Positions 5,385-43,795 of a DNA stretch of 64,000 nt are shown in pieces; positions within the stretch are counted from its first letter, which is position 1, and each line of letters starts with the position of its first letter. The stretch lies in NCBI GenBank assembly GCA_028278025.1, contig JANQFE010000049.1, positions 62,001-126,000 on the forward strand, given 5' to 3'. The position numbers and the translations under genes were made by a program. The stretch comes from Thermodesulfobacteriota bacterium (GTDB lineage Bacteria > Desulfobacterota > WTBG01 > CAIYCZ01 > CAIRTM01). The notes beneath the pieces were generated by a model. It was not told the DNA's origin, ran no database searches, and saw only the letters and a program-made list of their open reading frames with translations.

Positions 5385-5388
5385 CAGG

Positions 5389-6045: not shown

Positions 6046-6063
6046 AATAGTATCCCAACAAAA

Positions 6064-7188
6064 TTATTCATATAACAAGGTCCTTGCGGCAATATCAAGC
6101 TCAAGGGCCTTCAGGTCACCGTTAAGCCGGTGAGCAAGCAGAAGCTGCTGCTCGGCTTCGCTTCCTTGCTCAATCATTTCCCGGGCATAGCCGACATGGT
6201 GTGCACAATTCAGCTCGGCTGCTTTGGGCATAACAAACGCAATTAGCCGCTCAAGTTGTGTTTGCATTGCTATAATCTCCCCGGTTTCAGGCTCTATAAT
6301 ATCAGCTCGTAATCCGTCCCGAATGGCCCGCCACCAGTTTTGTTCCAAAAAACCGGGGTTCAGCTTACTTGCCGGTTTTTGGGCACAATATGCATCCTGA
6401 TAAGTGGCAACGGCAGCCTGTACAAGCGCTGCAAACACTCCCAGTCGCTTCACATCTGTCGGCAGGTCAAAAAACCTGAACTCCACCGTTCCCAAAGGCG
6501 GTTGGGGCCGAATACACCACCACAGGTCTCCCGGTCGGGTTATGTCACCGGCTGCAAGCATTTTCTCATAATAGGCATCAAGTTCACTGAAACGGGTAAA
6601 AGGGGGTGCAAACCTGCTGCGGGGCATACAATTAAAAAGATGAGTCCTGGTTGATACCAGGCCGGTTTCCTCACCTTCATAGTAAGGCGAATTTGCTGAA
6701 AGGGCCACCAGAGGATAGGTCCAGCGGCGCATTTCGTTCATTACATACAGGGCTGCTTCATCACTGCGCACACCCACATGGACATGCAGCCCGAAGGCCA
6801 GCAGGCGGTGGGCAATATAGTTATAATTATAGTGCACCCACTGGTAATGGTCTGAATCTACGAAAGGCTGAGCACGCCATGAGCCAAAGGGGTGAGAACC
6901 GCCGGCAACAAGCATCATCCCCAGCTGTTTGCAGCATTCTGCCAGGGAGGACCTGGCCTTACATACTGCTGCAACAAGGTCATCAACTGTTGTAAAAACC
7001 CCCGTGCGATTTTCCAGCACACACAGCAGCAGTTCATAGCAGATCTGCTCACGCATTTCAGGATCCAGCCGGGCCATAACATCATCCACACGGGGACACA
7101 GCTCTGCTGTTACAGGATCAATCAGGTGAAATTCTTCCTCCACTCCCAAGGTGGGATAATCATTTGGCTTAAACGGTACCATACTCAT
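6064..7188 (-). CDS. YbdK-type carboxylate-amine ligase (glutamate-cysteine ligase family 2)
   Basis: ATP-grasp-like GCS2 family ligase of 374 residues, normal length for YbdK. The diagnostic start TLGVEEEFHLID is at residues 13-24, followed by the HVHVGV motif, RTHLFNCMPRSRFAPPF and VEFRFFDLPTD. E. coli YbdK has weak glutamate-cysteine ligase activity; the natural product is not known. Its gene begins 14 bases after the M20 amidohydrolase stop, and the TIGR04076-like gene follows closely. A ligase and a hydrolase of amide bonds in one operon suggests a pathway making or recycling an amino-acid conjugate, which is inference. Confidence 0.88.
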   Translation of the reverse strand: MSMVPFKPNDYPTLGVEEEFHLIDPVTAELCPRVDDVMARLDPEMREQICYELLLCVLENRTGVFTTVDDLVAAVCKARSSLAECCKQLGMMLVAGGSHPFGSWRAQPFVDSDHYQWVHYNYNYIAHRLLAFGLHVHVGVRSDEAALYVMNEMRRWTYPLVALSANSPYYEGEETGLVSTRTHLFNCMPRSRFAPPFTRFSELDAYYEKMLAAGDITRPGDLWWCIRPQPPLGTVEFRFFDLPTDVKRLGVFAALVQAAVATYQDAYCAQKPASKLNPGFLEQNWWRAIRDGLRADIIEPETGEIIAMQTQLERLIAFVMPKAAELNCAHHVGYAREMIEQGSEAEQQLLLAHRLNGDLKALELDIAARTLLYE

Positions 7189-7202
7189 AGAGATACCCGC
7201 TG

Positions 7203-8381
7203 TTATATTCTCTTTTTAGCTGCCTGCAGTGCCAGTCCGACCAGGATTGTAATTCCCGATTCCAGGGCCGCATCAGCAAAATCAAAATTACCGGAATGCA
7301 GCGGCGCACACGCCGTTCCCATGCCCAGCCGAAAAAGCAGTGTGGGTACCTGCTGCGAGAAAACACCGAAATCATCAGACCCCGTGCTCTGCTCGGATAA
7401 TACGTCGACTTTTTCACTTCCCAGTAAATTACCGGTTACGGTCTCAAAAAGGCTGTACAGATCAGGCTGGTTGTATACAGCCGGACAATAACCGTCATAA
7501 TGTATTTTTGTCCGGACACTATCCTGATCGGCTATCCCGGCTATTACCACACCGAATTTAGTTAGAATCTCCTGCCGTATGGTTTCATCCATCGAACGGA
7601 TGGTACCTCGTATGGTGGTTTCATCAGGGATGGTATTGTGCTGTCGGCCACCGCGTATTACGCCTACACTGATCACACACAGGGGCCGACCGTCACTGTC
7701 ATAACGGGTAAGATCACTAATTGCCCTCACAATCCGGGCCGCACTTAAAATAGGGCTTATGGTTTCATGCGGCCGGGCACCATGCCCGCCTCTACCCTTT
7801 ACTTTTATGGTAAACCGGTCATTACCGTATGTTACAAAGCCCGGCTTGGCTGCAACCACACCGCACTCCAGATACGGCCAGGCATGCAAACTGAAAATTG
7901 CTGCAGGCAGCCGGCTGCCCAGGGCACCCTCCTTGACCATCAGCTGAGCACCGTTGGTACCTTCTTCGCCCGGTTGAAAAATCAGCCTTACCGTACCGGC
8001 AAGACGGTCGCGCAGCCGTGCCAGTATACGGCCGGCTTCCAGAACACACACCATGTGCCCGTCATGACCGCAGCTATGAGCCCTGCCCGGACAGTGCGAC
8101 TCGTACGGCTTACCTGTTGTCTCCATAATCTTAAGTCCATCCATGTCTGCCCGCAAGGCAACAACCCGACCGGGCCGCGTGCCGGTAATCGTTGCAACAA
8201 TACCTGTTTGGGCTACGCCCTCTTTTGTTACCTCAATTCCTGATTCCTTGAGCTCCTGAACCAACAGTTGTGCCGTAAGCTTTTCTTTAAATGATTCCTC
8301 GGGAATTTGATGCAGCCGGTGCCGCAACGCGACTGCCTGTTTCAGGACAGCCCTGACCTCGCGCCTGATAATGGTTTTCAT
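7203..8381 (-). CDS. M20 family metallopeptidase (N-acyl-amino-acid / IAA-conjugate amidohydrolase)
   Basis: Zinc- or manganese-dependent amidohydrolase of the M20D group. It shows the early RHRLHQIPE motif, SCGHDGHM, LIFQPGEEG, HAWP and the C-terminal STGSDDFGVFSQ and PLHSGNFDF motifs that carry the metal ligands. It would cleave an acyl or amide conjugate of an amino acid. The frame is open up to a GTG at 8456 and an ATG at 8450, but the family normally begins near KTIIRREVR, so the ATG at 8381 (392 residues) is preferred; none of the starts has a strong ribosome site. First gene of the operon with a carboxylate-amine ligase and a TIGR04076-type protein. Confidence 0.88.
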   Translation of the reverse strand: MKTIIRREVRAVLKQAVALRHRLHQIPEESFKEKLTAQLLVQELKESGIEVTKEGVAQTGIVATITGTRPGRVVALRADMDGLKIMETTGKPYESHCPGRAHSCGHDGHMVCVLEAGRILARLRDRLAGTVRLIFQPGEEGTNGAQLMVKEGALGSRLPAAIFSLHAWPYLECGVVAAKPGFVTYGNDRFTIKVKGRGGHGARPHETISPILSAARIVRAISDLTRYDSDGRPLCVISVGVIRGGRQHNTIPDETTIRGTIRSMDETIRQEILTKFGVVIAGIADQDSVRTKIHYDGYCPAVYNQPDLYSLFETVTGNLLGSEKVDVLSEQSTGSDDFGVFSQQVPTLLFRLGMGTACAPLHSGNFDFADAALESGITILVGLALQAAKKRI

Positions 8382-8543
8382 CTGCCATACCGATATGTTA
8401 TATGTCCTCAGCTCAATAAATAATTTAGTTATATCACAATTATGTTTCATATCCACTGTTTAGTAATATAATCAATATGTGCTATACTGTTTTTTCAAAC
8501 GGATATCTTTTAGTAATGAAGTTTCAAATCAAACAACAATGCC

Positions 8544-9140
8544 ATGGAATTAAAAAAAACGCTCTACAAACTTCAGACAGGTCAAAAACTGAAAATTGTT
8601 GCCCTGGGTGATTCGCTCAGCTATGGCTGGATGGTTGAAAAAGGCTACCTTGCTTTTCTCAAGGAAAAGCTGATGGTCAAGTACCCGCGAAGCCTGGTTT
8701 CCATAAGTAACCGGGGCCTACCGGGTGATACGGCCCGGGGAGGACTGCATCGTCTGCAGGAACATGTTTTAGATGCCCGTCCCGACCTGGTACTGGTCCA
8801 GTTTGCTCTCAATGATGCATTTTCAGGGTATAGTATCGAAGAGTTTCAAAGCAATATTCTGGGAATAATAGATGGTATCAAAAGCAGCACTTCTGCTGAA
8901 ATACTGCTTATGACCTCATCTGCTCTTGAGGGCAGCGATCAGGCCATAGCTGAACAGTATTATGACTCCCTTAAACAAATTGCCGCAAAAAAATCCGTAC
9001 CTATTGCCTGTGTTCATGAATACTGGCAAGAGAAAATACGTGGCGGGGTACCCTTTGACAGCCTTGTGCAATATGATCGCGTACACCCGACTGTCGACGG
9101 CTATCGTCTCATGGCCGAGGCCGTAATGCAACTGCTATAG
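8544..9140 (+). CDS. SGNH/GDSL hydrolase (lysophospholipase or arylesterase-like)
   Basis: Serine esterase of 198 residues. Block I is ALGDSLSYG with catalytic Ser24; block II is NRGLPGD with the oxyanion Gly; block III QFALNDAF holds the Asn; block V DRVHPTVDGY carries Asp and His. No signal peptide is visible, so unlike E. coli TesA it should stay in the cytoplasm. It is a single gene in a divergent position to the amidohydrolase operon. Substrate cannot be deduced; short acyl esters are typical. Confidence 0.85.
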   Translation: MELKKTLYKLQTGQKLKIVALGDSLSYGWMVEKGYLAFLKEKLMVKYPRSLVSISNRGLPGDTARGGLHRLQEHVLDARPDLVLVQFALNDAFSGYSIEEFQSNILGIIDGIKSSTSAEILLMTSSALEGSDQAIAEQYYDSLKQIAAKKSVPIACVHEYWQEKIRGGVPFDSLVQYDRVHPTVDGYRLMAEAVMQLL

Positions 9141-9217
9141 CAAATCCCCTGGTTCGTGATTGACACATAAATCTTCGGAGCAATGCCGGTCGTACTACGG
9201 CAGGCTGAATTTCAATG

Positions 9218-9697
9218 TTACATCACTTCTAATCTATACAGGGACTGGTTACGCCACACAAGCGGCGGATTTCCGAGTTCTTGCTGGTTCACAACCCTGG
9301 CTATCATGAGATAGTTTTGCGCTATCTCATGACGCTCAACCACCCGGCACTGCATCCATGCGGCAGCATCTACAGGAACAAGGGCCGTGCCCTCCTGTGG
9401 CGGCAGCGTTTCTATTGAGAATCGTTCAAACTTGTCTTCCGCATCCCCACGGGCACTGCCCACCTGCCAGACAAGCTCCTGCTGCCCTTCCGCGGCAATA
9501 ACCAGCGTAAATTCCCCGGATTGCTCTATGAGCTGCGCCGTAAGATGGTCCTGGGCAACACTGACTGCCAGAACAGGTTCTGTTTCTGAGATAAATTGTG
9601 CCGTAGCCGTCATAATATCCCGTTTATCCCCATGGGCCGTGCTGATAAACACTACCGGACAGGGCAGCCAGCCGGTTACTGAATCGGTTTTACTCAT
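9218..9697 (-). CDS. Flavin reductase-like FMN-binding protein
   Basis: 159 residues of the FMN-binding split-barrel (flavin_reduct) family. The N-terminal CPVVFISTAHGDKRDIMTA segment, the ISETEPVLAVSVA strand and the SGEFTLVI strand match the family. Members reduce flavin with NAD(P)H or bind FMN for another redox protein. It lies immediately downstream of ptsP on the same strand (43 bases) but the two are not functionally linked in any way I know. Upstream AGG-rich sequence gives a good ribosome site. Confidence 0.78.
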   Translation of the reverse strand: MSKTDSVTGWLPCPVVFISTAHGDKRDIMTATAQFISETEPVLAVSVAQDHLTAQLIEQSGEFTLVIAAEGQQELVWQVGSARGDAEDKFERFSIETLPPQEGTALVPVDAAAWMQCRVVERHEIAQNYLMIARVVNQQELGNPPLVWRNQSLYRLEVM

Positions 9698-9740
9698 GAT
9701 AGGGGCCTCCTGTTACAGTTTGCTTTTGCTCTGCAAAACA

Positions 9741-12014
9741 TTATGCAAAAGTTTGGTTTTGCAGTATGTTACGTACACCTTCAATCGTGGCTTGCGACAA
9801 GAGCGCTTTGGCAAGGGACTGGGTATGAGATATGGTCAGTTGTGCAACAGTTCTTTGCACTGAAGATAAAAAGTGCGGATCCACACTAAAACTCCTTATG
9901 CCGATACCGATAAGAAAAGGGATATATTCGGTTACATGGGCCATTTCACCGCAGATGGAAACATCCTTATCCGCTTGCACGGCAGCATCGACAATCTCGG
10001 CAAGCCCTCTGAGCACTGCGGGGTGTTCAGGACAATAAAAAGCAGCCACCCTTTCATTAGCCCGGTCAACGGCAAGCATATATTGGACAAAATCATTAGT
10101 TCCTATGGAAAAAAAATCAGCCTCGCGGGCAAGGTCGGTAATAATACCGATTACGGAGGGCACTTCAATCATAGTCCCGATTTCCGGGTCAGGGCAATGG
10201 GGAAGGCTTTCGCGGTGCAGTGCATCAAGACATTCAAGAACGGCTGCCCGTGCCACACGAAACTCATCCAGTGATGAGATAAGCGGAAACATTATCCTGA
10301 GCTTTGTTGCATCAGCGCCTGCACGCAGTATTGCCCGCAACTGCTGTTCAAATAAATCCCTATAATTGAGTGCAAAACGGATTGACTTAAGACCCAGCTC
10401 CGGGTTGGCTTCCACCGGCTTGTCCTCATAGGCCCACGCTTTCTCACCACCGATATCCAACGTGCGGATGGTCACCGGTTTGCCGCACATCCCGTCAAAT
10501 AAATGCTTGTAGATAGGATACTGCTCCTCCTCTGAAGGAAAAGTCGTCCGGATTAGAAAAGGAAATTCAGTTCTATAAAGCCCTACACCTTCGGCCTTGA
10601 GCTTAAGTGCAGGTGCTATCTCACTCAAAATATTAATATTGGCCAGGACTGCTATACGAGTGCCGTCCTTAGTCACCGTTGCAGCAGGCCGTGCGTGTGT
10701 TTCAGGTTCTACCTCTTTGATTTTGTTGCGCTGCTCAAAGCGTTCGACAACATTTTTTGAAGGGTTTATATAAACATTACCAATCTCGGCATCGATTAAA
10801 ACCGGCGTGTCATCAGGAACCTCGATCAACTCCATCCGGTCGACAATAACCAGAGGAATCTGTAAAGATCGCGAAAGAATGCTGACATGAGACGTCACCC
10901 CTCCACTGACGACAATAATCCCCTGAACATTCTCAGATACCAGTTTCAGCACATCCGATGGATACAGCTCAGGTGCAATCACAATGCGCTCTTTTTTAAT
11001 GTCAGGATGCTGCTCGACATTTTTTGCAAGGTTCTTCAGGATCCGATTGGCAAGGTCTTTAATATCATAGACTTTTTCCTGAATATAAGCATGCGGGCTC
11101 GCTGAAAACAGGGTGCAATAATCCTGGGCTACTGTGTTTACCGCAGCGGCCGCGGCGGAACCGTCTTTGATAAGGGCCGCCATTTTATCGACAAATTTCG
11201 GATCTTTCAGCATCATTGTGTGAGCAGCAAAAATAAGTGCAGCACTTTCAGGTAAACGCTCAGCACAAACGCCCTGAAGCTCCTGTATCTGTAATCTGGT
11301 TTTCCTAACAGCCTCATGAAAGTCATCAAGTGTTGTGAGAAAGTCTATTCCCGGCTTGTCAATCGACATTAGGGGGTAATCGGCTTTCAAAACAAAGGCC
11401 GGCGCATAGGCAAATCCTTCTGCACCGACTTTCCCTTTTACAAATTGAATCTTTTTGAGCAGGTCGGCATCTGCGGCCTGCCGGTCATTGTGCTGAAACT
11501 CCATGAGGATCCGGGCATTTTCAATTGCCCCTGCAAGCTGGGAAGCGATTGCACGCAGGGCCATAACATCAATTTCTGTAAAATAATTCTTCCGTTCATG
11601 CTGGACAACAAGCACACCTATCTTTTCAACACCTTTCTGAATAGGAACTGCCAGGAAGGATTCGAAACAATCCTCATCAGCTTCCACAAAATATTTGAAA
11701 TGTGGATTGCTGCATACACAGCCTTCCCGGATCGGCTTCATATGCTGCATTGTTGTGCCTACCAGACCTTCACCGATTTTCATACGGATTACGTCAACAG
11801 CTTTGGGGTTCAATCCTTTGGTTGCTTTAAGCACAAGGTCATCACTGTTTTCTTCGTACAGATAAATCGAGCCGACATCGGCTTTCAAATGCTGGGCAAC
11901 CATCACAACAGTATCTTGCAGAAAACTTGCTATATCATTGCTGCCGGCCAGCATAACAGCCAGTTCTCCGATATCACACAGAAGATTTAAATGATCAATA
12001 TTGTTACGTTTCAT
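9741..12014 (-). CDS. ptsP: PtsP: GAF-domain phosphoenolpyruvate-protein phosphotransferase (EI-Ntr)
   Basis: First enzyme of the nitrogen-type PTS: autophosphorylates on His from PEP and passes the phosphate to NPr/HPr. Domain order: GAF (about 5-165), N-terminal HPr-binding domain (about 190-320), swivelling phospho-His domain with GGVTSHVSILSRS (about 370-385), and the PEP-binding TIM barrel (about 450-740) with RTDIGGEK-type motif (read as RTLDIGGEK), GIGTNDFVQY and the active-site Cys in SICGEMA. Length 757 is right for PtsP. No partner PTS genes occur in the window, so it signals to proteins encoded elsewhere. It is transcribed away from the acyltransferase gene at 12255. Confidence 0.93.
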   Translation of the reverse strand: MKRNNIDHLNLLCDIGELAVMLAGSNDIASFLQDTVVMVAQHLKADVGSIYLYEENSDDLVLKATKGLNPKAVDVIRMKIGEGLVGTTMQHMKPIREGCVCSNPHFKYFVEADEDCFESFLAVPIQKGVEKIGVLVVQHERKNYFTEIDVMALRAIASQLAGAIENARILMEFQHNDRQAADADLLKKIQFVKGKVGAEGFAYAPAFVLKADYPLMSIDKPGIDFLTTLDDFHEAVRKTRLQIQELQGVCAERLPESAALIFAAHTMMLKDPKFVDKMAALIKDGSAAAAAVNTVAQDYCTLFSASPHAYIQEKVYDIKDLANRILKNLAKNVEQHPDIKKERIVIAPELYPSDVLKLVSENVQGIIVVSGGVTSHVSILSRSLQIPLVIVDRMELIEVPDDTPVLIDAEIGNVYINPSKNVVERFEQRNKIKEVEPETHARPAATVTKDGTRIAVLANINILSEIAPALKLKAEGVGLYRTEFPFLIRTTFPSEEEQYPIYKHLFDGMCGKPVTIRTLDIGGEKAWAYEDKPVEANPELGLKSIRFALNYRDLFEQQLRAILRAGADATKLRIMFPLISSLDEFRVARAAVLECLDALHRESLPHCPDPEIGTMIEVPSVIGIITDLAREADFFSIGTNDFVQYMLAVDRANERVAAFYCPEHPAVLRGLAEIVDAAVQADKDVSICGEMAHVTEYIPFLIGIGIRSFSVDPHFLSSVQRTVAQLTISHTQSLAKALLSQATIEGVRNILQNQTFA

Positions 12015-12118
12015 AAGCGGATGTCTTGCTTAAGCAAATGGTTACCGGTCTATCTGATATAGAGATAATACATTCAAACAGCTATTGCAACCCCTCTATA
12101 TACAGCCCGGAATTTGCA

Positions 12119-12147
12119 TTGACAATCGTCGGGCTCTTTGCAATACA
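12119..12147 (+). promoter_or_regulatory. Candidate promoter of the acyltransferase gene
   Basis: TTGACA at 12119-12124 with a 17-base spacer to AATACA at 12142-12147. The -35 is perfect and the -10 is weak. It lies about 110 bases before the start codon at 12255. Confidence 0.3.
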
Positions 12148-12254
12148 TGTAACCATATCCAAGCGGTTTACTGTAAATGGCTGGATAATACACTCCTTGA
12201 AAGGATTTGTAGAAATTTTACTCGCAAGCCGTTACACGCAACGTTTCTGCAACA

Positions 12255-13256
12255 ATGAAAAGACTTTCGCTTGAGCAACTGGATTTACAGGCTGACCTAT
12301 ACAATGCATCCGTTGCCGCATCTGGAGGCATAGATCCTTTTTGTTCACGAACAGACTGGATTATACCCTTCCACCAAGCCTTTATGCCTGCGTGCGATGT
12401 TTTTATCTGGCAGGCGCACGATAGTTTTGTCGCGTTGGCCGGGAATGTGTCACCTGATGGCCGGATGTTCTTAGCACCTCTGGAACCGCTGTGGAGATTT
12501 CCTTCACCGCTCGTAGGCCCTGATGCGCCGGATATGCTTGCAGCCCTTTTGCAAAGCAACCCTCCTGATCCTGACCTGCGCGGCGTTCACCTTATCATGT
12601 TCGGACTGCCCGACAGCCCTGCTTTCATACAAGCTTTGATTGAAAAAACAGCTGGGTACCACCATAAACCGTTTCTGTTAGAGCCGACCCAGCGCTGCAC
12701 GGCTTCGCTTGCAGGAGGAGTTGATGGTTTTCTTCGTCGCCGGACCGCAAAATTCCGCTACAACCTGCGCCGGGCCTTGCGCAAAGAGCAAAAACAGCAT
12801 ATTACATTCCGTTACATTACAAACGTGACAGAGGATGCTATTGCAAAAATCTATGCAGAAATACTTGCTATTGAACGCACAAGCTGGAAAGGACTCAGCA
12901 GCCAGGGCACTGACCAGCCTCCCATGAAGGAGTTCTACCACTATATGTTACAGCGTATTGCCCCAGCGGGACAACTGCGGCTTATCATAGCCGTGCTTGA
13001 GAATAAACCTATTGGCTATATATACGGAGCAGTTGTCGGGAAGCATTTTCGCGGTTTGCAATTCAGCTTTGACCAACAGCATGCTGGGCTGTCCCCCGGT
13101 AACTTCATGCAGTATCGCATGATTGAATGGATGTGCAAAGAAGGGTGTGTGCAGTATGACTTTGGTATGCTGGTTCCGTATAAAAGAAGGTGGGCTGAAA
13201 GCATCCATACAACCCGGACAGTGTATCTGTATCCTATATTAAAACAAAGCTCGTAA
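12255..13256 (+). CDS. GNAT/FemAB-like acyltransferase (BioF2/CelD type)
   Basis: 333 residues resembling the peptidoglycan-interpeptide/CelD-type acetyltransferases. The N-terminal half contains SGGIDPFCSRTDWIIPFHQAF and the conserved early WRFPSPLVG region, while the C-terminal half carries the GNAT core: RYNLRRALRKEQK, then the KPIGYIYGAVVG strand, FSFDQQHAGLSPGNFMQYR and YDFGMLVPYKRRWAE. Family members transfer acyl or amino-acyl groups, often in exopolysaccharide or envelope synthesis. Its true acceptor is unknown. The ATG at 12255 has no strong ribosome site. The gene is alone. Confidence 0.7.
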   Translation: MKRLSLEQLDLQADLYNASVAASGGIDPFCSRTDWIIPFHQAFMPACDVFIWQAHDSFVALAGNVSPDGRMFLAPLEPLWRFPSPLVGPDAPDMLAALLQSNPPDPDLRGVHLIMFGLPDSPAFIQALIEKTAGYHHKPFLLEPTQRCTASLAGGVDGFLRRRTAKFRYNLRRALRKEQKQHITFRYITNVTEDAIAKIYAEILAIERTSWKGLSSQGTDQPPMKEFYHYMLQRIAPAGQLRLIIAVLENKPIGYIYGAVVGKHFRGLQFSFDQQHAGLSPGNFMQYRMIEWMCKEGCVQYDFGMLVPYKRRWAESIHTTRTVYLYPILKQSS

Positions 13257-13380
13257 GCCATGTAATTATAATTCGCTTTATAGCTGAATATGAGCGCCTA
13301 TCAGCTTACCAGTTCATCAGCTTTCTTGTCTCTCACAGAGCTCACAAAGATACAGGAGTGTTTCACAAAAGTCCTTGAGA

Positions 13381-13401
13381 GCAGGTTTTTTGTGAACCTG
13401 C
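13381..13401. terminator. Short hairpin downstream of the acyltransferase gene
   Basis: GCAGGTT and AACCTGC pair perfectly over 7 bp around a T-rich 7-base loop. There is no run of T after it on the + strand, so it is a weak terminator candidate. Confidence 0.3.
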
Positions 13402-13441
13402 AATAAACGGCATGGATTTTATGGTCGAATAGTATAGCTCA

Positions 13442-13637
13442 TTAGAGCATTTCTCTTTTTTCTATAGCCCTTGAGCACTGCGAAGGCTGATGTGGTAAGA
13501 GCAACTGCGGCGGTGCGAGCAAGGGACGATATTATTAATTCTGGATATTCCAGCGAGCACGTAGCCGCAGGCAGTCGAACCGCATCAGCCTTCGCTGCCT
13601 CAACTGTGAGGCTACGCTTTTTTGCGAAATGCTCTAG
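13442..13637 (+). repeat. CTAG-type palindromic element, copy E
   Basis: 196 bp, from TTAG (13442-13445) to CTAG (13634-13637), with an 11-bp terminal inverted repeat TAGAGCATTTC. An inner arm GAAGGCTGATG pairs with CATCAGCCTTC and CTGCGGC pairs with GCCGCAG around the tip. The core has GGTGCGAGC, 32 bases, then CAGCGAGCACGTAGCCGCAG. It sits between two convergent genes. Its termini are almost the same as those of copy F at 54 kb and the core-less copy at 62.6 kb. Confidence 0.8.
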
Positions 13638-13657
13638 CTTATCAGTTCACCGACTTA

Positions 13658-14032
13658 TCAGCTCTTTGTAAAAGACGTATCTTTGAAATAATCACTGATA
13701 TAGACTATCTTCCCTGCCGCCATATATACAAGTGTTACGCCGCGGTTATGGTACGGTTCCCCTTTGCTGCTTATGCCTTTGTTTGTCCAGCATATACATG
13801 CTTTGTGGTCCTCAGCAATTGTATCTTCTATGGTAAATGCAAGTTCAGGATATTTTCGCAGCAAAGCTTTGAGAAATATAATAATGCGTTTTTTACCGGC
13901 AACCTCCCCTGATCCCGGGAAATCGAAAACGGCATCATCGGCCAAATGCTTTGCAAACTCTACAAAATCCCTTGTGTTCATCGTTGCGATGACAATCTTC
14001 GCTAATTTTATAGCTGCTAATTGTTCCTCCAT
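13658..14032 (-). CDS. NTF2-like / SnoaL-type protein (ketosteroid isomerase fold)
   Basis: About 124 residues with the NTF2 fold signature: an N-terminal helix (AAIKLAKIVIATMNTRDF), then FAKHLADDAVFDFPGSGEVAGKKRI, then a strand pair ending in YHNRGVTLVYMAAGKIVYIS. Proteins of this fold are small isomerases, cyclases or ligand-binding proteins; no catalytic pair can be named with confidence. The frame extends upstream to 14095, but the ATG at 14032 gives the family's usual length and is preferred. It faces copy E of the repeat. Confidence 0.65.
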   Translation of the reverse strand: MEEQLAAIKLAKIVIATMNTRDFVEFAKHLADDAVFDFPGSGEVAGKKRIIIFLKALLRKYPELAFTIEDTIAEDHKACICWTNKGISSKGEPYHNRGVTLVYMAAGKIVYISDYFKDTSFTKS

Positions 14033-14453
14033 AGGATTATCTCTCAGATTTCTCGTTCCATACCCGTTCTTCTTTTCTGCAGCAAGCTTTCCCATCCCGG
14101 CAGATAGGCATGCATCAGACTTTTAAATAATCTGCCGTGGTTGGGCCGGGATTGCATTAATCTGTTACCATAGGACTCTTCGCCGGCATCGATCCTCTTT
14201 GCCGGTTAACAATTGAGATCAAGCGCTAACAGTGCAAAAAGCCTGATCGACCACACGCGAAAATGGTATCGAGCTGTGGTAGAAATAACGCCCCAGGCCG
14301 ATGGTAAAGATCAGAAAGCCGCAAGGGGCATATTCAAAGGCAACTGTAAAGGTTGATCTGGTCCGATCATAGGTAAAAGCAAACAGTATTCCTGCCCAAA
14401 AGGTACGTGCTACCGCTACACTATTTTGCAGCAGCTTATGGTCGTACTGTCTG
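14033..14453. other. Intergenic stretch with no gene recognised
   Basis: Only low-quality open frames occur here, including one that overlaps the next gene in another frame. No RNA gene, hairpin with T-run or repeat was recognised. Confidence 0.5.
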
Positions 14454-14747
14454 TTATTGTTTGTATAGCCGTTTTTCCATATCGCGGTACTCCCCGGCAG
14501 CTGTTTGGGCCTTATCATACCACGTTTCAACTTCCGAAGGCAGGTCTCGGCCGCTACGGGACATGGCGTCAATATGTTTCAACAGCAACAATACAAAATA
14601 TCGTTTGTCGTTTGCAAGATACTTGCAGCCCGGGCCGCATGATTTTTTCTTTGCGGCATGGGTCATAATATCGAACCCAACGAGCTGTGCTATCCGCTTG
14701 GCCTCATCAAAATCAAGCCGTGCAAAACCGCTATTATTGAATTTCAT
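14454..14747 (-). CDS. Small hypothetical protein (97 aa)
   Basis: Start chosen at the ATG at 14747; a TTG lies two codons upstream. The product is mostly helical and charged, with KKKSCGPGCKYLANDKRYFVLL in the middle, a Cys-x3-Cys pair, and a Tyr-rich amphipathic C-terminal helix. No family is recognised and no ribosome site is obvious. Amino-acid composition looks coding. It is bordered downstream by an empty region and upstream by the copy C repeat. Confidence 0.45.
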   Translation of the reverse strand: MKFNNSGFARLDFDEAKRIAQLVGFDIMTHAAKKKSCGPGCKYLANDKRYFVLLLLKHIDAMSRSGRDLPSEVETWYDKAQTAAGEYRDMEKRLYKQ

Positions 14748-14981
14748 AATCAAAAAGGAAAACTAATGAATTAAATTTTTACAAGCCTCTACAGAAACTA
14801 CGGTTTTTTCTCCAGTCCCATTGCAACGCAGCCGAGTGCAGGGCTTTTAGGCGGACAAGTTGCAGGGGGCCTTTTCTTTGGAGCACGCCAAGAAAAGTAA
14901 ATTATCTAACTTCTTATATATTGATGTAACAAAAGCAGGCAGGAGTGTCAACATCGTGCAGTGAGAATAAAACAGCACTAC

Positions 14982-15210
14982 CTAGCCCGCATTATTCATC
15001 AGCATGTAGTGAACACGCACTCCCCTCTGGTGTTTACTACAAAAAAAACTTCCGGCACGCCTGCAGTCTGCGGCATCGGGTTGGGCTGCAAAGGTGGTGC
15101 GAGCGATGTCCGGTAATCAAGAAAGTAGCTGTTTTTGCGAGCACATAGCCTGTAGCAAGCAGCCCGGTGTCGCAGACTAGCCGCTAATAGTCATGAATAA
15201 TGCGGGCTAG
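14982..15210 (+). repeat. CTAG-type palindromic element, copy C
   Basis: 229 bp with a perfect 18-bp terminal inverted repeat CTAGCCCGCATTATTCAT (14982-14999 and 15193-15210). An inner stem pairs the CAGTCTGCGGCATCGGGTTG region (15064-15083) with the CCCGGTGTCGCAGACT region further on. The core has GGTGGTGCGAGC, 32 bases, then GCGAGCACATAGCCTGTAGCAA. Longest of the copies; it contains an extra 50 bp on the left side between terminus and inner arm. Confidence 0.85.
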
Positions 15211-15213
15211 CAC

Positions 15214-15244
15214 AAAAAAATGCCCCCATCTATGGGGTGGGGGC
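15214..15244 (-). terminator. Rho-independent terminator of the minus-strand gene at 15283
   Basis: Read on the minus strand, GCCCCCA pairs with TGGGGGC around an 9-base loop and is followed by seven T. It lies about 40 bases after the stop of the 479-residue gene. Confidence 0.8.
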
Positions 15245-15282
15245 TGTCGGTAACTTTTTTAAAATGACCGGGTTGTTTCAGG

Positions 15283-16722
15283 CTACTGTCGTTGTGTCAG
15301 CACTGAATCAATAGCCTGATACAAAGCCTCGACCAGGTGATGCTGATATTTGCCGGTTGGAACACCATTATAGATAACATGGGTTTTGCCCTGCATGATC
15401 TCCCGCCAGTAAGGAACTGACTGGTCGGCATAATCAATCGGTTCGTCTATGTTATAATTTTCCATATTCTCATAGTTCTTCAGGGCATGGTGGAAGAGGG
15501 TATCGGAATTCTCTGCCATAAATTCAATAGGAAGACCAATGACATAATCATAACCGTCATTGATGGCCTGCCAGTAGACCCGGTTGGTGCCGGAATATTT
15601 CTCGTCGGGGTCCCAAATCGGATCGGCAAACTCATCCTGGCACGTGACAATATTGGTCCTGCCGAATTTATATGTTTCCAGCAGCTCTTTGCAGTCTTCA
15701 AAGAGTTTATCCCGATAAGGCGGAGCAAGCTGCAGCCAGGCCTCCCACTGAAAAGCATCCCAGGGCATGCCGTGTACGGTTACTGCTACCGTAACATCAG
15801 AGCCTTCCGGGATAGTGTCCAGCCGATCCTTGAGCATATCCACAAAGGCCTGCCGCATGGGTTGGAAATCTCCCATCTGGGGGGCCATGATTACCTTTAT
15901 CTTCTTGCCCGGATGCTTGTGTTCCCACTCCTCGATGTACTCAAAAACATGCCGGAAACTTGAATTAAATTCCTCGAAATGCGAGTAGATTGCCATGGGT
16001 GCAACCAGCACAATGGTTTCACAGCCGGCATCCAGCATTTCGAAAATTTTCTGTTTAGAAGAATAGTGGAACAGGTTTGTTTCAGAACGAAATTCAATAT
16101 TGTCATATTTCTGGCCCAACTTGTCAAAAGCAGCGTTAATCATCTTGAAGGTCTCTTCCCAGTGGGGCAATTTTTTCTGGACAATGCCGATGTCATAGTA
16201 ATAAAGCCTGGATTTGCCGGCCAGCTTACCGCACAGCGTGGGTGCACCGCCCAGACGGCCCTTATAAATGAAGTAGCCGTTGTCAAGATATATCCGCTTG
16301 GATGGCGGAGCCCAGACAACCTGGCCCTGCCTGTAGCGTTCAATATAGGGTGTGCCGTCAAAGTCTTCTTCATTGCCGAAGGCATCCACTAAGCGTGCGG
16401 GCGTAAACTCTTCGCGGGCATGCACATGGGCCGGATCATACAGGGCTACGCCCTTGTCCTTAAAGGCAAAAATTCTGAAAGGCCACGGCACAATCTGCGA
16501 AAAAATCTTATATACAATATTGTGCCAGAATGAGTGGACGTGCTTTTCCGGCAGAATCAGGGAGGTGGCAAAGACACCCACCTTACCGACAGGCACTGTA
16601 TCCTGGGTTTTGTAAATCTCAAAGTAGTCCGGTTCCGGCCTTTTATTTTTGACCTTATAGAGTATAAAAAAGCCCCCGACTATAACTGCGAGTAAAACGA
16701 TTATACTGATTAATACTGCCAT
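15283..16722 (-). CDS. Membrane-anchored protein with ferrochelatase-like C-terminal region
   Basis: 479 residues beginning with one transmembrane helix (about 3-24) and a basic cytoplasmic stretch. The remainder is soluble. A segment from about 270 on resembles the chelatase superfamily: MPWDAF and the Trp-rich EAWLQLAPPYRDKLFEDC region, later PDEKYSGTN, and a C-terminal SDTLFHHALKNYE that looks like the ferrochelatase ETLYE region. An HG pair in TVHGMPWDAF could be the metal-ligand His. This is a visual resemblance only; it could also be a family of unknown function. AAGGAGG precedes the ATG. It is a single gene with its own terminator. Confidence 0.5.
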   Translation of the reverse strand: MAVLISIIVLLAVIVGGFFILYKVKNKRPEPDYFEIYKTQDTVPVGKVGVFATSLILPEKHVHSFWHNIVYKIFSQIVPWPFRIFAFKDKGVALYDPAHVHAREEFTPARLVDAFGNEEDFDGTPYIERYRQGQVVWAPPSKRIYLDNGYFIYKGRLGGAPTLCGKLAGKSRLYYYDIGIVQKKLPHWEETFKMINAAFDKLGQKYDNIEFRSETNLFHYSSKQKIFEMLDAGCETIVLVAPMAIYSHFEEFNSSFRHVFEYIEEWEHKHPGKKIKVIMAPQMGDFQPMRQAFVDMLKDRLDTIPEGSDVTVAVTVHGMPWDAFQWEAWLQLAPPYRDKLFEDCKELLETYKFGRTNIVTCQDEFADPIWDPDEKYSGTNRVYWQAINDGYDYVIGLPIEFMAENSDTLFHHALKNYENMENYNIDEPIDYADQSVPYWREIMQGKTHVIYNGVPTGKYQHHLVEALYQAIDSVLTQRQ

Positions 16723-16853
16723 ACTGCCTCCTTATAGTTATAAAAACCGTATTAATGACTACAAGCTATTGAAGCTCCTTGGTGCTGTTGCCCGTGATCA
16801 TCCTTTTAACCTCTTTATAATAAAAGCCGGGACTAGGTACTCAGGATAAAGGC

Positions 16854-17150
16854 TTATAGGAGCAGACGAGAAGTCGATAAGATGTAAAATTTCGGCTGGT
16901 AATGCAGCGATGCCGCAATGGGAAGTTTCTTGAATGCTTCCGATGGTGAAAAAATGTCAACATGTGCAGCTTGAAAAAACTTTGCAAAAATAAAACGGCA
17001 TGAATCTTTAGAAAGCTTATTTACTATCTTCTTTTCAATATCATGACTGCCGGTCGCAGATCCATAAATCGTTTGCGCAAAAGGGCACGTCATCACATAC
17101 GTGAAGGCACATATAAACAACAGTATATGAAAACATTTCTGCACAGGCAT
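16854..17150 (-). CDS. Small secreted or membrane protein, paralogue of the 56334 gene
   Basis: 98 residues. The first 25 form a hydrophobic signal or anchor segment, HILLFICAFTYVMTCPF. It is followed by a polar region with DIEKKIVNKLSKDSC. The gene at 56334-56639 has the same start (M-P-x-x-K-x-F, then Y-x-M-x-CP) and the same K-x-S/H-KDS motif at the same distance, so the two are paralogues. Cys after the hydrophobic run could be lipidated. The C-terminal half is less well conserved. No family is recognised and no strong ribosome site is seen. Confidence 0.5.
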   Translation of the reverse strand: MPVQKCFHILLFICAFTYVMTCPFAQTIYGSATGSHDIEKKIVNKLSKDSCRFIFAKFFQAAHVDIFSPSEAFKKLPIAASLHYQPKFYILSTSRLLL

Positions 17151-17238
17151 AAATTTGTCTCACGTGCATTTTTTACTTCGCTTACAATCCTACTATTATA
17201 AAATACATAGTCCCGGTGTGTCAAGGTAAAGCAACTGC

Positions 17239-17736
17239 TTATTCTTCTTTCCAATCCCGTATTCTAAAAAGGCACTCTTCTTTGCCGTCGCCCATTCTGG
17301 AGAGTATTTCCCATCGGCCTCTTTTATCACGCCGGGCAACTTCCACATCATATTTACATATAAAATCACAGGGCAGTTCGGCTATGCCCATCTTTTTCGT
17401 CATGTTGAGAAACGGACACCGGGTCAGGTGTTCATAATACACATCCTCACCGTCTTCCACTTCATGATCAATATAAAGCTCAAAACCCAGCACCGGAAAG
17501 CTCACCAGCTCCCGCTTCATAAGCTCTCCTACCGACAGCTTGCCGCCCGGAAAGTTTTTCCTAATGCGCTTCATGCCTTCATCATACAGCTTTTTAAAAA
17601 CCGTTTCGCCCTGCTCATCGCCCAGTATCTTTTTTAAATCCAAATACAGGTTGATTCTGTCACTGGTATATGCCGCCCGCACTCTTGCAAGCTGCTCTTC
17701 AAGGGATAGCGGTTTCTCCGGCTTGGGGATTCTCAT
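17239..17736 (-). CDS. ATC-hydrolase-family-like protein (165 aa)
   Basis: 165 residues. The C-terminal third, RCPFLNMTKKMGIAEL followed by PCDFICKYDVEVAR and then GDGKEECLFRI, has the Cys-x-x-Asp/Cys pattern of the L-2-amino-thiazoline-4-carboxylic-acid hydrolase family (PF14196) and its relatives of unknown function. The N-terminal two thirds are helical. The link is a motif resemblance. An AAGGAG site lies before the ATG at 17736. Gene stands alone with a repeat fragment upstream of the next operon. Confidence 0.45.
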   Translation of the reverse strand: MRIPKPEKPLSLEEQLARVRAAYTSDRINLYLDLKKILGDEQGETVFKKLYDEGMKRIRKNFPGGKLSVGELMKRELVSFPVLGFELYIDHEVEDGEDVYYEHLTRCPFLNMTKKMGIAELPCDFICKYDVEVARRDKRGRWEILSRMGDGKEECLFRIRDWKEE

Positions 17737-17828
17737 GATGGTCTCCTTTTAAATGAAAAAATTACCATTTCGGCAAGCCGCTGAGTCATAAAGGCTCAAA
17801 AAGACGTATCAGCTTACCGGCTTAAAAA

Positions 17829-17868
17829 CTGGAGCATTTCCCTTTTTGCTATAGCCCGCAGCAATCAG
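17829..17868 (+). repeat. Deleted CTAG-type element (left end fused to half a core)
   Basis: CTGGAGCATTTCCC resembles the left terminus of copies E and F, and is joined directly to TATAGCCCGCAGCAATC, the right half of the core as in copy D. The GCGAGC boxes, tip and right arm are gone. The nearest matching right-hand end, TACTAATAG, is at 17912-17920, just before the next gene's stop codon. Confidence 0.5.
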
Positions 17869-17921
17869 ACCAAAGGTGGCCAACGTATACGAATAAAATA
17901 AAATGTCTATGTACTAATAGG

Positions 17922-18374
17922 CTACTTGACAACAATCTTGCCTTCAAAGCGAAAGTGATCGGATTTTCGCCACGTTGTGCTCATGGGTGTTCGTTCAATG
18001 AAGTACTCGAAGGTACCGCGCTCTACAAAACACAGGCTGGCAACCGCACCAAAGGGTATATCCTTGGAAACAAACACCCCCTCGTCATTAATAGAAAAAT
18101 TTACCGGACTTTTACACGCCAGGGTAACCTTTTTCTGGGGAAAAGTTACTTTAACCTCTCCTTTATACTGGTTGAGCCAAACCACCACCGTGCCCGGTTC
18201 TATAAAAAGATTAAGGGGGGCCACACCTTCATACCCTCTTATCCTGACAACAGCGGTCTTAATGTCCTTACCCTTCAACTCGACAACACCCTCTTGCGGC
18301 TGCTGCGGACCCGCTCCGGCCGGTCCTGTAAAAACGAAGACCCCGATTAGCAATACAAGCAATTTCTTTTTCAT
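17922..18374 (-). CDS. Exported cupredoxin-like protein
   Basis: 150 residues with a signal peptide (KKKLLVLLIGVFVFTGPAGA) and a mature part of predicted beta strands. The pattern EPGTVVVWLN, then VKVTFP, then a Cys in TLACKSPVNF, then FGAVASLCFVERGTFEYF and GKIVVK resembles the plastocyanin-like fold, in which the Cys before the last strands can bind copper. The usual C-x-H and M ligands are not obvious, so copper binding is uncertain. It is last in the minus-strand cluster, about 50 bases after the NmrA-like gene. Ribosome site GGGGGG. Confidence 0.6.
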   Translation of the reverse strand: MKKKLLVLLIGVFVFTGPAGAGPQQPQEGVVELKGKDIKTAVVRIRGYEGVAPLNLFIEPGTVVVWLNQYKGEVKVTFPQKKVTLACKSPVNFSINDEGVFVSKDIPFGAVASLCFVERGTFEYFIERTPMSTTWRKSDHFRFEGKIVVK

Positions 18375-18388
18375 AATCCCCCCATACT

Positions 18389-18430
18389 GTGTTTAGTGTT
18401 TAGTGTTTACTGTTTTGTGTTGTTTACTGT
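18389..18430. repeat. Short tandem heptamers GTGTTTA
   Basis: Three exact copies of GTGTTTA (18389-18409), followed by degenerate units ending inside the next gene's stop region. The same heptamer is repeated three times at 52087-52107. Function unknown; microsatellite-type repeats can alter spacing by slippage. Confidence 0.6.
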
Positions 18431-19308
18431 TTGAGCTGCTGCTGCAACCATGGCTCCAGCTTTTGAAATTCAATGGTGAATGATTCCCTAACCGTTTGCA
18501 TATCCTCCGAACTGCACACACTGTCACGCGACATCCTGTAAAGAAAATCCTTGCCGCCCCGGCTGCCGGTCACAAGGGCCATGAATGAAAACAGCAAATT
18601 CATAAGCCAGAATGGAAGTTTTTTAACTTTAGCCTGCCGGCCTACAACGGTGCCGACAAGATGCACGATATCTGCAAGTGTAAATACTTCCGGACCGGCA
18701 ATTTTAATAATCTTGTTTTTTATTTTTTCATTATCAATCGACTGGATAAATGCTTCTGCAAGGTCTGCCGGTGCAAGGGGCTGCAGGCGGGTTTGTCCAT
18801 CACCTATAAGCGTAAAACCGCCTGTCTCCTTGATCCTAGGGGCAAAGTGTTCGGCAAAATCAACAAAATAGCCTGATGGCCGAAAGATAGTATAGGGTAT
18901 ACCTGAATGTATCAGGGCCTGCTCGGCATTCCATTTAGCAGCAAGTGAAGTCGCCGGGGCTTGCGGCTTGACCCCCAGGGCACTGATATACATGACATGT
19001 TTTACATTGTTCTCTATAGCAGCCTGAACAACATTTTGCATACCGCCATGTTCAACCATCTCGTGGGTCAGTTCCTTTGTCTGCCGTTTCAGGCCCAACA
19101 CACACATAACCGTATCAACATCCCGGGTTGCTGTGCGCACTGCCTCAATATCCATGATATCTCCGGTAACAACTTCAAGGGCTGCTGTGTCAAGCCCGGG
19201 CATGTCGACCGGCTTGAGGTCAAAGCACCGGGCCCGGACAGCCCTATCGACAGCCTTCCTGACTATTTCCCGGCCTACATGACCATTAGCACCTGCAATA
19301 AGAATCAT
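18424..19308 (-). CDS. NmrA-like atypical SDR family NAD(P)-binding protein
   Basis: 294 residues. The Rossmann motif GANGHVG is at residues 6-12, followed by TGDIMD and the MYISALGV strand. The C-terminal segment SRGGKDFLYRMSRD and the absence of the YxxxK pair in its usual position suggest an atypical SDR (a5/NmrA group), which often senses redox state or reduces quinone-like compounds. It is one of a run of redox genes and is between the cupredoxin-like and VAO-type genes. GGGGG gives a ribosome site. Substrate unknown. Confidence 0.75.
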   Translation of the reverse strand: MILIAGANGHVGREIVRKAVDRAVRARCFDLKPVDMPGLDTAALEVVTGDIMDIEAVRTATRDVDTVMCVLGLKRQTKELTHEMVEHGGMQNVVQAAIENNVKHVMYISALGVKPQAPATSLAAKWNAEQALIHSGIPYTIFRPSGYFVDFAEHFAPRIKETGGFTLIGDGQTRLQPLAPADLAEAFIQSIDNEKIKNKIIKIAGPEVFTLADIVHLVGTVVGRQAKVKKLPFWLMNLLFSFMALVTGSRGGKDFLYRMSRDSVCSSEDMQTVRESFTIEFQKLEPWLQQQLKQ

Positions 19309-40936: not shown

Positions 40937-40978
40937 AAAAAACAATGCCGGAAAATATGCTTTTCCGGCATTGTTTTT
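40937..40978 (-). terminator. Strong terminator after the DGR/SCP2 operon
   Basis: AACAATGCCGGAAAA (40941-40955) pairs perfectly over 15 bp with its complement (40961-40975) around a 5-base loop, flanked by A-run on one side and T-run on the other. It would terminate transcription from either side, and lies 20 bases after the SCP2-domain gene stop. Confidence 0.9.
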
Positions 40979-40997: not shown

Positions 40998-41336
40998 TTA
41001 CCCTATAGTCCTGTCAAACATTTCATGAAAATGAACAGCCAGCCCCTCGTCCCCCTGCAGCTTTATTTTGCCGTGCATAAACATACTGAAAGGGGTAGCC
41101 TTTTCAAGCACAAGCTCGATATAATCTTTTGAATCCATTTTTATACCGACATCCGGTGCGTCGGCCCTGCCGGTTTTTACCTCGATTGTACCGTTGTCAA
41201 TTGCAACAGACCACACGCCGGCACCTTCACCGGTCAATTCAATTTGAAATACCGCTTTAAGCTTGCCGGCCCTGTCCGGCAAAAAAGCTTCGGGCATCTT
41301 TTCAAATATTGTTTTCACATCATCGGCTACACTCAT
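40998..41336 (-). CDS. SCP2 sterol-binding domain protein
   Basis: 112 residues from the ATG at 41336 (GGAGG upstream; a GTG at 41342 lies too close to the site). Fits the SCP2 fold: IFEKMPEAFLPDRAGKLKAVFQIELTGE, VAIDNGTIEVKTG, DVGIKMDSKDYIELVLEK, MFMHGKIKLQGDEGLAVHFHEMF. Small stand-alone SCP2 proteins bind acyl chains or sterols. It is the last gene of the transcript with the DGR proteins but the function seems unrelated to them; it may instead belong with the lipid-handling theme of the region. Confidence 0.8.
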   Translation of the reverse strand: MSVADDVKTIFEKMPEAFLPDRAGKLKAVFQIELTGEGAGVWSVAIDNGTIEVKTGRADAPDVGIKMDSKDYIELVLEKATPFSMFMHGKIKLQGDEGLAVHFHEMFDRTIG

Positions 41337-41363
41337 TATCACCTACCTCCTGTTCTGTTTACC

Positions 41364-41756
41364 TCATGTGGCGGACCAACAGCATATGCCATTACTATAA
41401 TTTATGCAATAAGAAAAAACATGCTTGATCCGGCCGCCGACTTCCGCACCGATCTCATTCAGGCTGCGCGAGACGAACTCATATTTTCTGATGCTTAGAT
41501 ACTTCAAATCTTTTACCAGCCGTACAAGATACCTCAGTTTTTCTATTTTCAAGTTTGCCTCCTGCAAAACGGCTGTTTTGTTCCTGGTATATACCGCCTG
41601 AATGATCAGTTCCATAACATCGAGCAGTGTTGTCTCGATCCGGTCTCCCAATAGATACCGTTGGCCCTTGGGAAACTTTTCCAGCACGGGAACGATCCAC
41701 AAAAGCAGATCGTAAGTCCTGGTAAGTGCATTCACTTCTTTAAGCGTTTTATCCAT
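41364..41756 (-). CDS. avd: Avd-type DGR accessory protein (four-helix bundle)
   Basis: 130 residues. TRTYDLLLWIVPVLEKFPKGQR (read in pieces), then LLGDRIETTLLDVMELIIQA, then ANLKIEKLRYLVRLVKDLKYLS and YEFVSRSLNEIGAEVGGRIK are characteristic of the Avd accessory protein of diversity-generating retroelements: a homopentameric helical bundle that binds the reverse transcriptase and template RNA. The same four-helix fold occurs in 23S-rRNA intervening-sequence proteins, but the LLLWIVPxLEKFP and EIGxxxGGW/R pattern favours Avd. Its gene is only 23 bases after the variable protein. The last 18 residues (VFSYCINYSNGICCWSAT) are unusual and may derive from a changed reading frame. No RT gene follows. 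Confidence 0.85.
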   Translation of the reverse strand: MDKTLKEVNALTRTYDLLLWIVPVLEKFPKGQRYLLGDRIETTLLDVMELIIQAVYTRNKTAVLQEANLKIEKLRYLVRLVKDLKYLSIRKYEFVSRSLNEIGAEVGGRIKHVFSYCINYSNGICCWSAT

Positions 41757-41779
41757 TCAAAGGGTAACAGGGTAAAAAA

Positions 41780-43792
41780 TCAAAGGTTAAGAGTCCTGGC
41801 GCAACGAAACCCCATACTGATGCCCCTGCCGAGAGGGTCGATCCTGCCGCGGATCGCACAGCGGCAGCCGCTTGATCCGCCGCCCCAGGAGCCGCCCCGC
41901 AAGACTCTTCTGTCCTTGTCTTCATCATAAAAGCTGGATGTCCACTCCCAGACATTACCCGCCATGTCATAGCATCCGTACGGGCTCCTTCCGTTAGGAT
42001 AACGTGTAACCGGCGTGGTTCCTTCAATACCGCTTTCGCGACTGTTGCATTTCTCTTTGTCAAAGCCATTTTCCCAGGGATACTCGAACCCCTCCTTTCC
42101 GCGGGCGGCTTTTTCCCATTCCTCTTCCGTCGGCAGCCGTTTACCGGCCCATGCGGCATAGGCTTGCGCTTCATAATAGGAGACCCCCACTACCGGGTGG
42201 TCGGGCAGCCCGGATCTTTCAGCCCAGTGTCTCGGCCGGGTAACTCCTGCCGTCTTCCTCCATTGTAATCCGGCACTGCTCCAGAATGTATCTTTTTCGT
42301 ACCCCCCTTCATCAATAAATTTTTTATACTGACTATTGGTCACAGGGTAAACATCCATGTAAAAATCATATTCAATGGTTTTATTATCCTTGTTTTCGCC
42401 GTAAAGAAACTCCCCGGCCGGGATTTTAACCATATTATCCGATTTATACTGAAAATCTTTTTCGCTTCCCGCCTTGTCTCTTGCATCAACAGCGCTTTCG
42501 ACAATCCCGCTCAATGTTATCAACTGTTCAAGTGTCTCCCGGTCGACATCAAACGCTTTAATAATATTTACCAGGGTCTTATTTCTCAGATACCCGTAAA
42601 ATGAATTGGGGATATTCTTTTCCTGGAATACTTCATCTGAAAATTCCCACCGATCATTTTTGGCGGTAATTTCATTTAGGTCTTTGATTGCTTTTTGAAG
42701 TTCCGCCAGGATATTAGGGTTTTCTTTCAGTTCCTCTCTGAGGGAGGGATAACTGTAGTCGATAATATTCCAGAAAAAGATGTGCTTAAAGGCGACTTCG
42801 ATCTTTCTTTCTCTGAAAAGGTCTTCCTGAAGGCTCATGTTATTAATAAACCGCTTAAACTGGCGGGGATTGTTTTTCACAGCCGGCAGAATCAAAGGCA
42901 GGTGGGCAATCATGTCCTCCTTAAAATCAGGGGAGATATGCTCAATAAACGATTCAAAACCGGTATCAGAAATATGAGGCAGGTTAAAGGTAACCTGAAC
43001 GATTTTGTCCATAAAAGCAACGGCATCGGCACCGTACCTTCCTTGTAACGCTTGCTCTATGATATCGTTGGCCGCGCCGATGACAAAAATACAGCCTTGC
43101 CGGTCCATAAACAACTTAATGGTTTCAAGGACCTTTAATATCCTCGGCCGCGGGCAGCGGTCAAGGTCATCAATGAACACAACCAGGGCGGCCGTTTTAT
43201 CATCCGGTTTTTCAGAGTCCGTGACTTTTGCACGCCAGCTTAGATACGTCCAGAGCAGGTCATCAAAGTATTTTTGAAACGTTTCATAGAATCCGAGTTT
43301 GTCCTTGTATTCGAGCTCCGAAAAAATTTCCGTTATATCCGTTCCCGTTACTATCTTCGAAATATTGCCGACAACCTTTGAATAATCCAACCTTTTTGTC
43401 AGTTTTTCAATCAGGGCCTTGCATTCTTCAAAAAAGTTGTCCGCCGCCATGGTTTTAAATATTTCTTCAATCAGAGCGGCAAGAATTTCGTTTTCATTAT
43501 TAAATTTCCAGGCCTGAAACCAAACGGACTTGCACTTCCTGTAAATGTTTGCATCCGTATATTCATCGCTGCCCAGGGACGATTGTACGGTTTTCATTAA
43601 TGTGGTCTTCCCGGACCCCCAGGGTCCGTATATACCTATAACAAGCGGCGTTTCGTTCTCTTTATTGGCTATCAGACCTGCTATGGTACGGGTATATGCG
43701 TCAAACCCGAAAGAGACTGTCCTTAAATCGCTTTCAGGATTGTCACTGATGATTTTTACCGGTAGAGTTTTTTTCTTTTCTTTCACCATCAT
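41780..43792 (-). CDS. DGR variable protein: KAP P-loop NTPase fused to FGE-type C-type-lectin domain
   Basis: About 670 residues. The N-terminal part is a KAP-family P-loop NTPase: Walker A GPWGSGKTT near 57-65, Walker B FIDDLDRCPRPRI near 210-220 with the Asp pair, and a helical region to about 450. The C-terminal part (about 460-670) is a formylglycine-generating-enzyme-like C-type-lectin domain: VKIPAGEFLYG, YPVTNSQYKKF, HPVVGVSYYEAQAYAAWAGKRLPTEEEWEKAAR (read in pieces), YDMAGNVWEW, RVLRGGSW and GFRCAR. The last 35 residues are the hypervariable binding face of DGR proteins. TTG/ATG/ATG start cluster at 43795-43789; ATG 43792 chosen, GGGGG upstream. NTPase plus diversified lectin domain suggests a conflict or ligand-recognition role; the absence of RT and template in the window is odd. 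Confidence 0.88.
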   Translation of the reverse strand: MMVKEKKKTLPVKIISDNPESDLRTVSFGFDAYTRTIAGLIANKENETPLVIGIYGPWGSGKTTLMKTVQSSLGSDEYTDANIYRKCKSVWFQAWKFNNENEILAALIEEIFKTMAADNFFEECKALIEKLTKRLDYSKVVGNISKIVTGTDITEIFSELEYKDKLGFYETFQKYFDDLLWTYLSWRAKVTDSEKPDDKTAALVVFIDDLDRCPRPRILKVLETIKLFMDRQGCIFVIGAANDIIEQALQGRYGADAVAFMDKIVQVTFNLPHISDTGFESFIEHISPDFKEDMIAHLPLILPAVKNNPRQFKRFINNMSLQEDLFRERKIEVAFKHIFFWNIIDYSYPSLREELKENPNILAELQKAIKDLNEITAKNDRWEFSDEVFQEKNIPNSFYGYLRNKTLVNIIKAFDVDRETLEQLITLSGIVESAVDARDKAGSEKDFQYKSDNMVKIPAGEFLYGENKDNKTIEYDFYMDVYPVTNSQYKKFIDEGGYEKDTFWSSAGLQWRKTAGVTRPRHWAERSGLPDHPVVGVSYYEAQAYAAWAGKRLPTEEEWEKAARGKEGFEYPWENGFDKEKCNSRESGIEGTTPVTRYPNGRSPYGCYDMAGNVWEWTSSFYDEDKDRRVLRGGSWGGGSSGCRCAIRGRIDPLGRGISMGFRCARTLNL
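41801..41905 (-). repeat. DGR variable region (VR) at the 3' end of the variable gene
   Basis: Codons for RGGSW to GFRC. Thirteen codons between 41819 and 41884 are of the form NNC (GGC, GGC, AGC, GGC, TGC, ATC, GGC, ATC, GAC, CTC, GGC, GGC, ATC), at the positions where the template repeats of FGE-type DGRs usually have AAC. This is the signature of adenine mutagenesis of AAC codons, with C fixed. The flanks (GGGTTTCGTTGCGCCAGG) would be the initiation-of-mutagenic-homology side. No template repeat was found in the window. Confidence 0.8.
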
Positions 43793-43795
43793 CAA

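Follow-up and report, generated by a model that had tools for sequence, protein, structure and literature searches.

A KAP-FGE target gene and its avd as the probable frozen remnant of a DGR in a Thermodesulfobacteriota genome

Background

DGR loci that lack a reverse transcriptase (RT) or a template repeat (TR), variable regions (VRs) served in trans, and population variants that retain the intact parts have all been described (PMC10907252). In Thiohalocapsa PB-PSB1, DGRs 1, 3, 4, 5 and 7 are target loci without an RT and/or a TR, and conflict-type NTPases, some of them with a KAP NTPase, are among the targets described in that work (PMC10907252). More broadly, KAP-NTPase targets occur among the conflict-type sensors of DGR clade 5D (PMC10907252). 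The locus reported here lies in a 64,000-nucleotide stretch (the window) of Thermodesulfobacteriota bacterium GCA_028278025.1 (genome of 4.8 Mb in 170 contigs, assembly 93.5% complete). It has both features, the absence of RT and TR and a KAP-NTPase target, and is a further example of what has already been published (PMC10907252). Two differences separate it from the PB-PSB1 loci. In PB-PSB1, MITE arrays or transposons took the place of the lost parts, and for several VRs service in trans or variation within the population is described (PMC10907252). At the window junction we saw no mobile element, and the window VR has no template in the assembly.

We consider the window locus to be, most likely, the frozen remnant of a chromosomal FGE-target DGR from which the RT and TR were deleted, with an intact sensor/NTPase still encoded. 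So read, it would be a clean fossil of targeted hypermutation, in that the DGR history of the VR can be demonstrated from the templates of relatives while its own machinery is gone. Searches for DGRs that start from the RT would miss such loci, which offer a chance to study the fate of a diversified sensor once its diversifier has been lost.

The locus and its genes

Three genes lie on the minus strand, in transcription order a KAP-NTPase/FGE protein, Avd and an SCP2 gene. The first (41780 to 43795), the putative DGR target, encodes 671 amino acids from an ATG at 43792, where the initial annotation had also placed the start. Pfam assigns it an N-terminal KAP P-loop NTPase (about 42830 to 43705; PF07693, 3e-39) and a C-terminal FGE/C-type-lectin domain (about 41795 to 42439; FGE-sulfatase PF03781, 1e-57). 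The VR occupies 41792 to 41905 and ends three codons before the stop, as in a C-type-lectin target with a C-terminal VR; its variable codons, 638 to 661, correspond to 41813 to 41884. The avd gene (accessory variability determinant; 41364 to 41756, 130 amino acids, core intact) begins 23 bp after the target stop. A further 21 bp separate its stop from the co-oriented SCP2 (sterol carrier) domain gene (40998 to 41342; PF02036, 4e-17), which is unrelated to DGRs. Beyond SCP2 lies a terminator-like hairpin of 18 pairs (40938 to 40978); it was scored on the plus strand and is nearly symmetric, so it could also serve the minus-strand unit. An Avd-type protein adjoining a variable protein with an FGE-type VR (p = 1e-8 for the VR in round figures; see below), followed by an unrelated SCP2 gene and a terminator, is the arrangement that the initial annotation had described, and it is borne out by these matches.

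The same annotation had cautioned that the link to DGRs would be weaker if the Avd were an IVS-type protein. Curated cutoffs favor Avd: the protein scores 110.4 bits against the NCBIfam DivGenRetAVD equivalog NF033474 (cutoff 80) and 72 bits against Pfam bAvd PF22296 (cutoff 40), while an IVS-type identity (23S_rRNA_IVP, PF05635) was rejected at 22 bits, under the cutoff of 33.8. It is 70% identical to the Avd of the complete locus L076, 52% identical to that of a complete DGR in genome G070 (locus L065), and also similar to phage proteins annotated as DGR Avd.

The target is 39% identical over its length to the KAP-FGE protein of the G070 locus and has a weak PDB match to TvpA (2y3c); no full-length KAP-FGE match was found in the searched genomes of the family. 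Its KAP domain resembles the KAP-type defense ATPases QatA, PifA and PDC-S20 of PADLOC (87 to 102 bits), sharing their P-loop similarity. For those proteins no FGE lectin match is reported, unlike the window protein, which at 113 bits falls far under the QatA equivalog cutoff of 600. The KAP-FGE protein is probably still a fixed ligand sensor coupled to an NTPase switch, and domain similarity makes a role in defense or conflict likely.

Complete relatives and the history of the VR

Scanning genome contigs once with an alignment of Avd proteins yielded 19 loci from Planctomycetota, Poribacteria, Aminicenantes, Desantisbacteria, Proteobacteria/Deltaproteobacteria and other groups. Their usual order is FGE target, Avd, RT and an Asn-codon-rich TR just after the RT, sometimes with a second target, and in L065, L068, L076 to L079 and L081 the RT start overlaps or abuts avd. 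Judged by this order, the window holds an FGE-type cassette cut off after Avd. L084 departs from this pattern in that its RT (minus) and Avd (plus) lie on opposite strands.

Two complete relatives are closest in kind. The FGE-type DGR of Planctomycetota MAG B27T3L11 (L076) has a TR and VR in the frame GGSW...CRCA...GFRCA, in common with the window VR; unlike the window, it has an RT and TR after Avd, and its target is a NACHT-FGE protein. The G070 DGR, from the phylum of the window genome, has both RT and TR and carries a KAP-FGE target downstream of the TR, with an HD-CE/NACHT-FGE target upstream of Avd. In the downstream KAP-FGE VR (L065:9304-9417), 12 of 67 non-A sites depart from the local TR, which sets this pair apart from the others, and the upstream VR (L065:5390-5510) apparently has a 1-nt deletion that shifts the frame; the G070 DGR may itself be decaying.

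As the window has no TR of its own, its VR was compared with the TRs of relatives. With the count confined to codon positions 1 and 2, at which silent drift is uncommon, the window VR differs from the L076 TR, the closest of these, at 22 of 32 adenines and 3 of 44 other bases (p = 1.1e-8); over all positions the counts are 24/34 and 18/80. When the roles of the window VR and the L076 TR were swapped, the excess was gone. Against the G070 TR, over all positions, 23 of 34 A sites and 19 of 80 non-A sites differ (p = 1.5e-5), and six TRs besides that of L076 show an A-site bias in the same direction. Codons of the form NNC make up 15/24 of the variable codons, compared with 164/647 elsewhere in the gene. 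In the complete relatives the VR departs from its own TR at zero or one non-A site in 6 of 7 pairs; in L076, 21 adenines and one other base differ out of 114. The concentration of VR substitutions at template adenines, with an Avd gene adjoining the target, therefore indicates that a DGR wrote the window VR in the past, a history read from sequence comparison.

Changes at the inferred adenine sites within 41813 to 41884 are skewed to G (17/24, compared with 46/116 in complete relatives; binomial p = 0.003), giving a glycine-rich VR. Selection or a difference in mutational spectrum may lie behind the skew.

Search for an RT and a template

No RT fragment was found in the window or near the junction with the HMMER filters off (E ≤ 1), and template searches found no copy of the VR within the window, in agreement with the initial annotation. 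Outside the VR, the top A-tolerant alignment, at 47452, has 29 identities in 100, against 34 to 42 in shuffled sequence, and was rejected as a decayed TR in favor of an A-rich artifact. The genome was covered as well: a 90-nt pattern in which A was tolerated at any VR base, with up to three mismatches, matched the VR alone, and a BLAST search with the inferred TR again returned the VR, apart from short chance matches. A near-identical template elsewhere in the genome, which the initial annotation had proposed to look for, was thus not found in the 93.5% complete assembly, and no viral contig carried a matching VR/TR frame.

An RVT_1 search of the genome recovered three RTs. By ORF inspection only, one is group II intron-like and one retron-like. 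The third, on contig C97, is the sole DGR RT of the genome; it belongs to an intact DGR that has a target of the Lcl_C type together with an Avd and a TR of its own. A DGR RT, which the initial annotation could not have seen, is therefore present, but it is of a different, Lcl_C type and is not cognate. We rejected it as the enzyme servicing the window VR: its TR, which codes for an Lcl_C tail, matches its own VR alone, with zero mismatches outside adenines. The C97 RT ORF (L072:2240-3955) has a MutS domain I at its C terminus (PF01624; 31 bits, against a cutoff of 20.6) and contains the TR, in frame, in its N-terminal extension; a locus in genome G007 (L070) has a similar layout.

The initial annotation had left two outcomes, service in trans or a system that has lost its RT and TR and is frozen. 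Under the first, the RT and TR would lie elsewhere in the genome, in sequence absent from the assembly, with the local Avd as an accessory factor. Trans service has been reported for DGRs 4 and 5 of PB-PSB1 (PMC10907252), the Avd core is intact, and the genome contains a DGR RT of another type. With an assembly 93.5% complete in 170 contigs, the RT and TR could be in the missing sequence. Still, the absence of a matching TR, the unrelated TR of the resident RT and the altered Avd tail speak against it, and we regard service in trans as unlikely. The VR history, the lack of a cognate RT and TR in the assembly, and the rearrangement of the avd 3' end where an RT would start instead uphold loss and freezing.

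Probable loss of the RT and TR

The window Avd can be aligned with its relatives as far as GG-x-x-K, beyond which (from about residue 113) it continues as a run-on tail. Residue 109 (codon 41430 to 41432) is Arg in place of the Trp of a GGW motif present in 12 of 13 relatives; the 13th is truncated. Because W109R and the run-on tail fall at the point where the RT of relatives starts, the RT and TR were probably deleted 3' of Avd. The probable junction, from the Avd alignment and the RT position in relatives, comprises the run-on tail and the 21-bp gap to SCP2 (41343 to 41420). Deletion is the simplest account of the missing RT and TR. Recombination between VR and TR, or repeat-driven collapse of the assembly, is unlikely, as either would remove Avd too, yet Avd remains between the VR and the junction. 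No SCP2 homologue was found in the eight other genomes of the family, so SCP2 gave no empty-site comparison.

We propose that the ancestral locus would have had the order target, Avd, RT, TR. Its RT would have reverse-transcribed the TR RNA, changing adenines at random, and the resulting cDNA would have overwritten the final ~100 bp of the KAP-FGE gene, altering the ligand-binding face of the lectin-like domain. A deletion that began at the 3' end of avd and reached into the DNA ahead of SCP2, with breakpoints that we infer, would then have taken the RT and TR. With only target and Avd left, the VR would be frozen at its last written version and diversifying activity presumably lost.

Alternatively, the species could be polymorphic, with an intact cassette including RT and TR in some cells and the deleted form in the assembly, a situation that pink berry aggregates show for DGR 3 and DGR 7 (PMC10907252). 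The present data give no sign of this, and the family relatives searched contain no full-length KAP-FGE match; we consider polymorphism quite improbable.

Other loci without an RT

Six of the relatives (L088, L089, L090, L091, L092 and L094) likewise have an FGE target and Avd without an adjacent RT, making seven loci with the window; L086, which stops at a contig end, was left out of this count. RT loss from FGE-plus-Avd loci is thus recurrent. Four of the six (L088, L089, L090 and L094) carry a truncated or frameshifted Avd, the fate one would expect for a passenger gene, and in the window too Avd is probably an unselected passenger today. In a relative-rate test against the L076 relative the window Avd showed no acceleration, and this normal rate and the intact core would, as far as sequence can tell, also fit retained function.

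Retained function could mean that Avd, co-opted for a role outside any DGR, now partners the KAP-FGE protein in a stable two-gene system. The intact core and normal rate are compatible with such a system, as are L091 and L092 (Planctomycetes), which pair an open Avd-like frame with an FGE gene and no RT. Against it stand the broken Avd of the four relatives, the loss of the invariant Trp in the window Avd and the distance of the L091 and L092 Avd-like proteins (about 46 bits); we find co-option very unlikely. Equally unlikely is a general form of this idea, in which RT-less target and Avd pairs are a recurrent selected end state, the DGR picking a binding specificity and then being discarded while Avd is kept for another role. 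A passenger Avd beside a frozen VR remains our preferred reading.

L090 and L094 come from genomes in which a further DGR-like RT, accompanied by Avd, lies elsewhere, and these two loci may be served in trans. No RT match was found in the 7.2-Mb genome of L088, a Desulfosudis oleivorans MAG. There, four FGE-type genes, one of them KAP-FGE, surround the truncated Avd (4311 to 18508), which would make L088 a second, larger stranded cassette.
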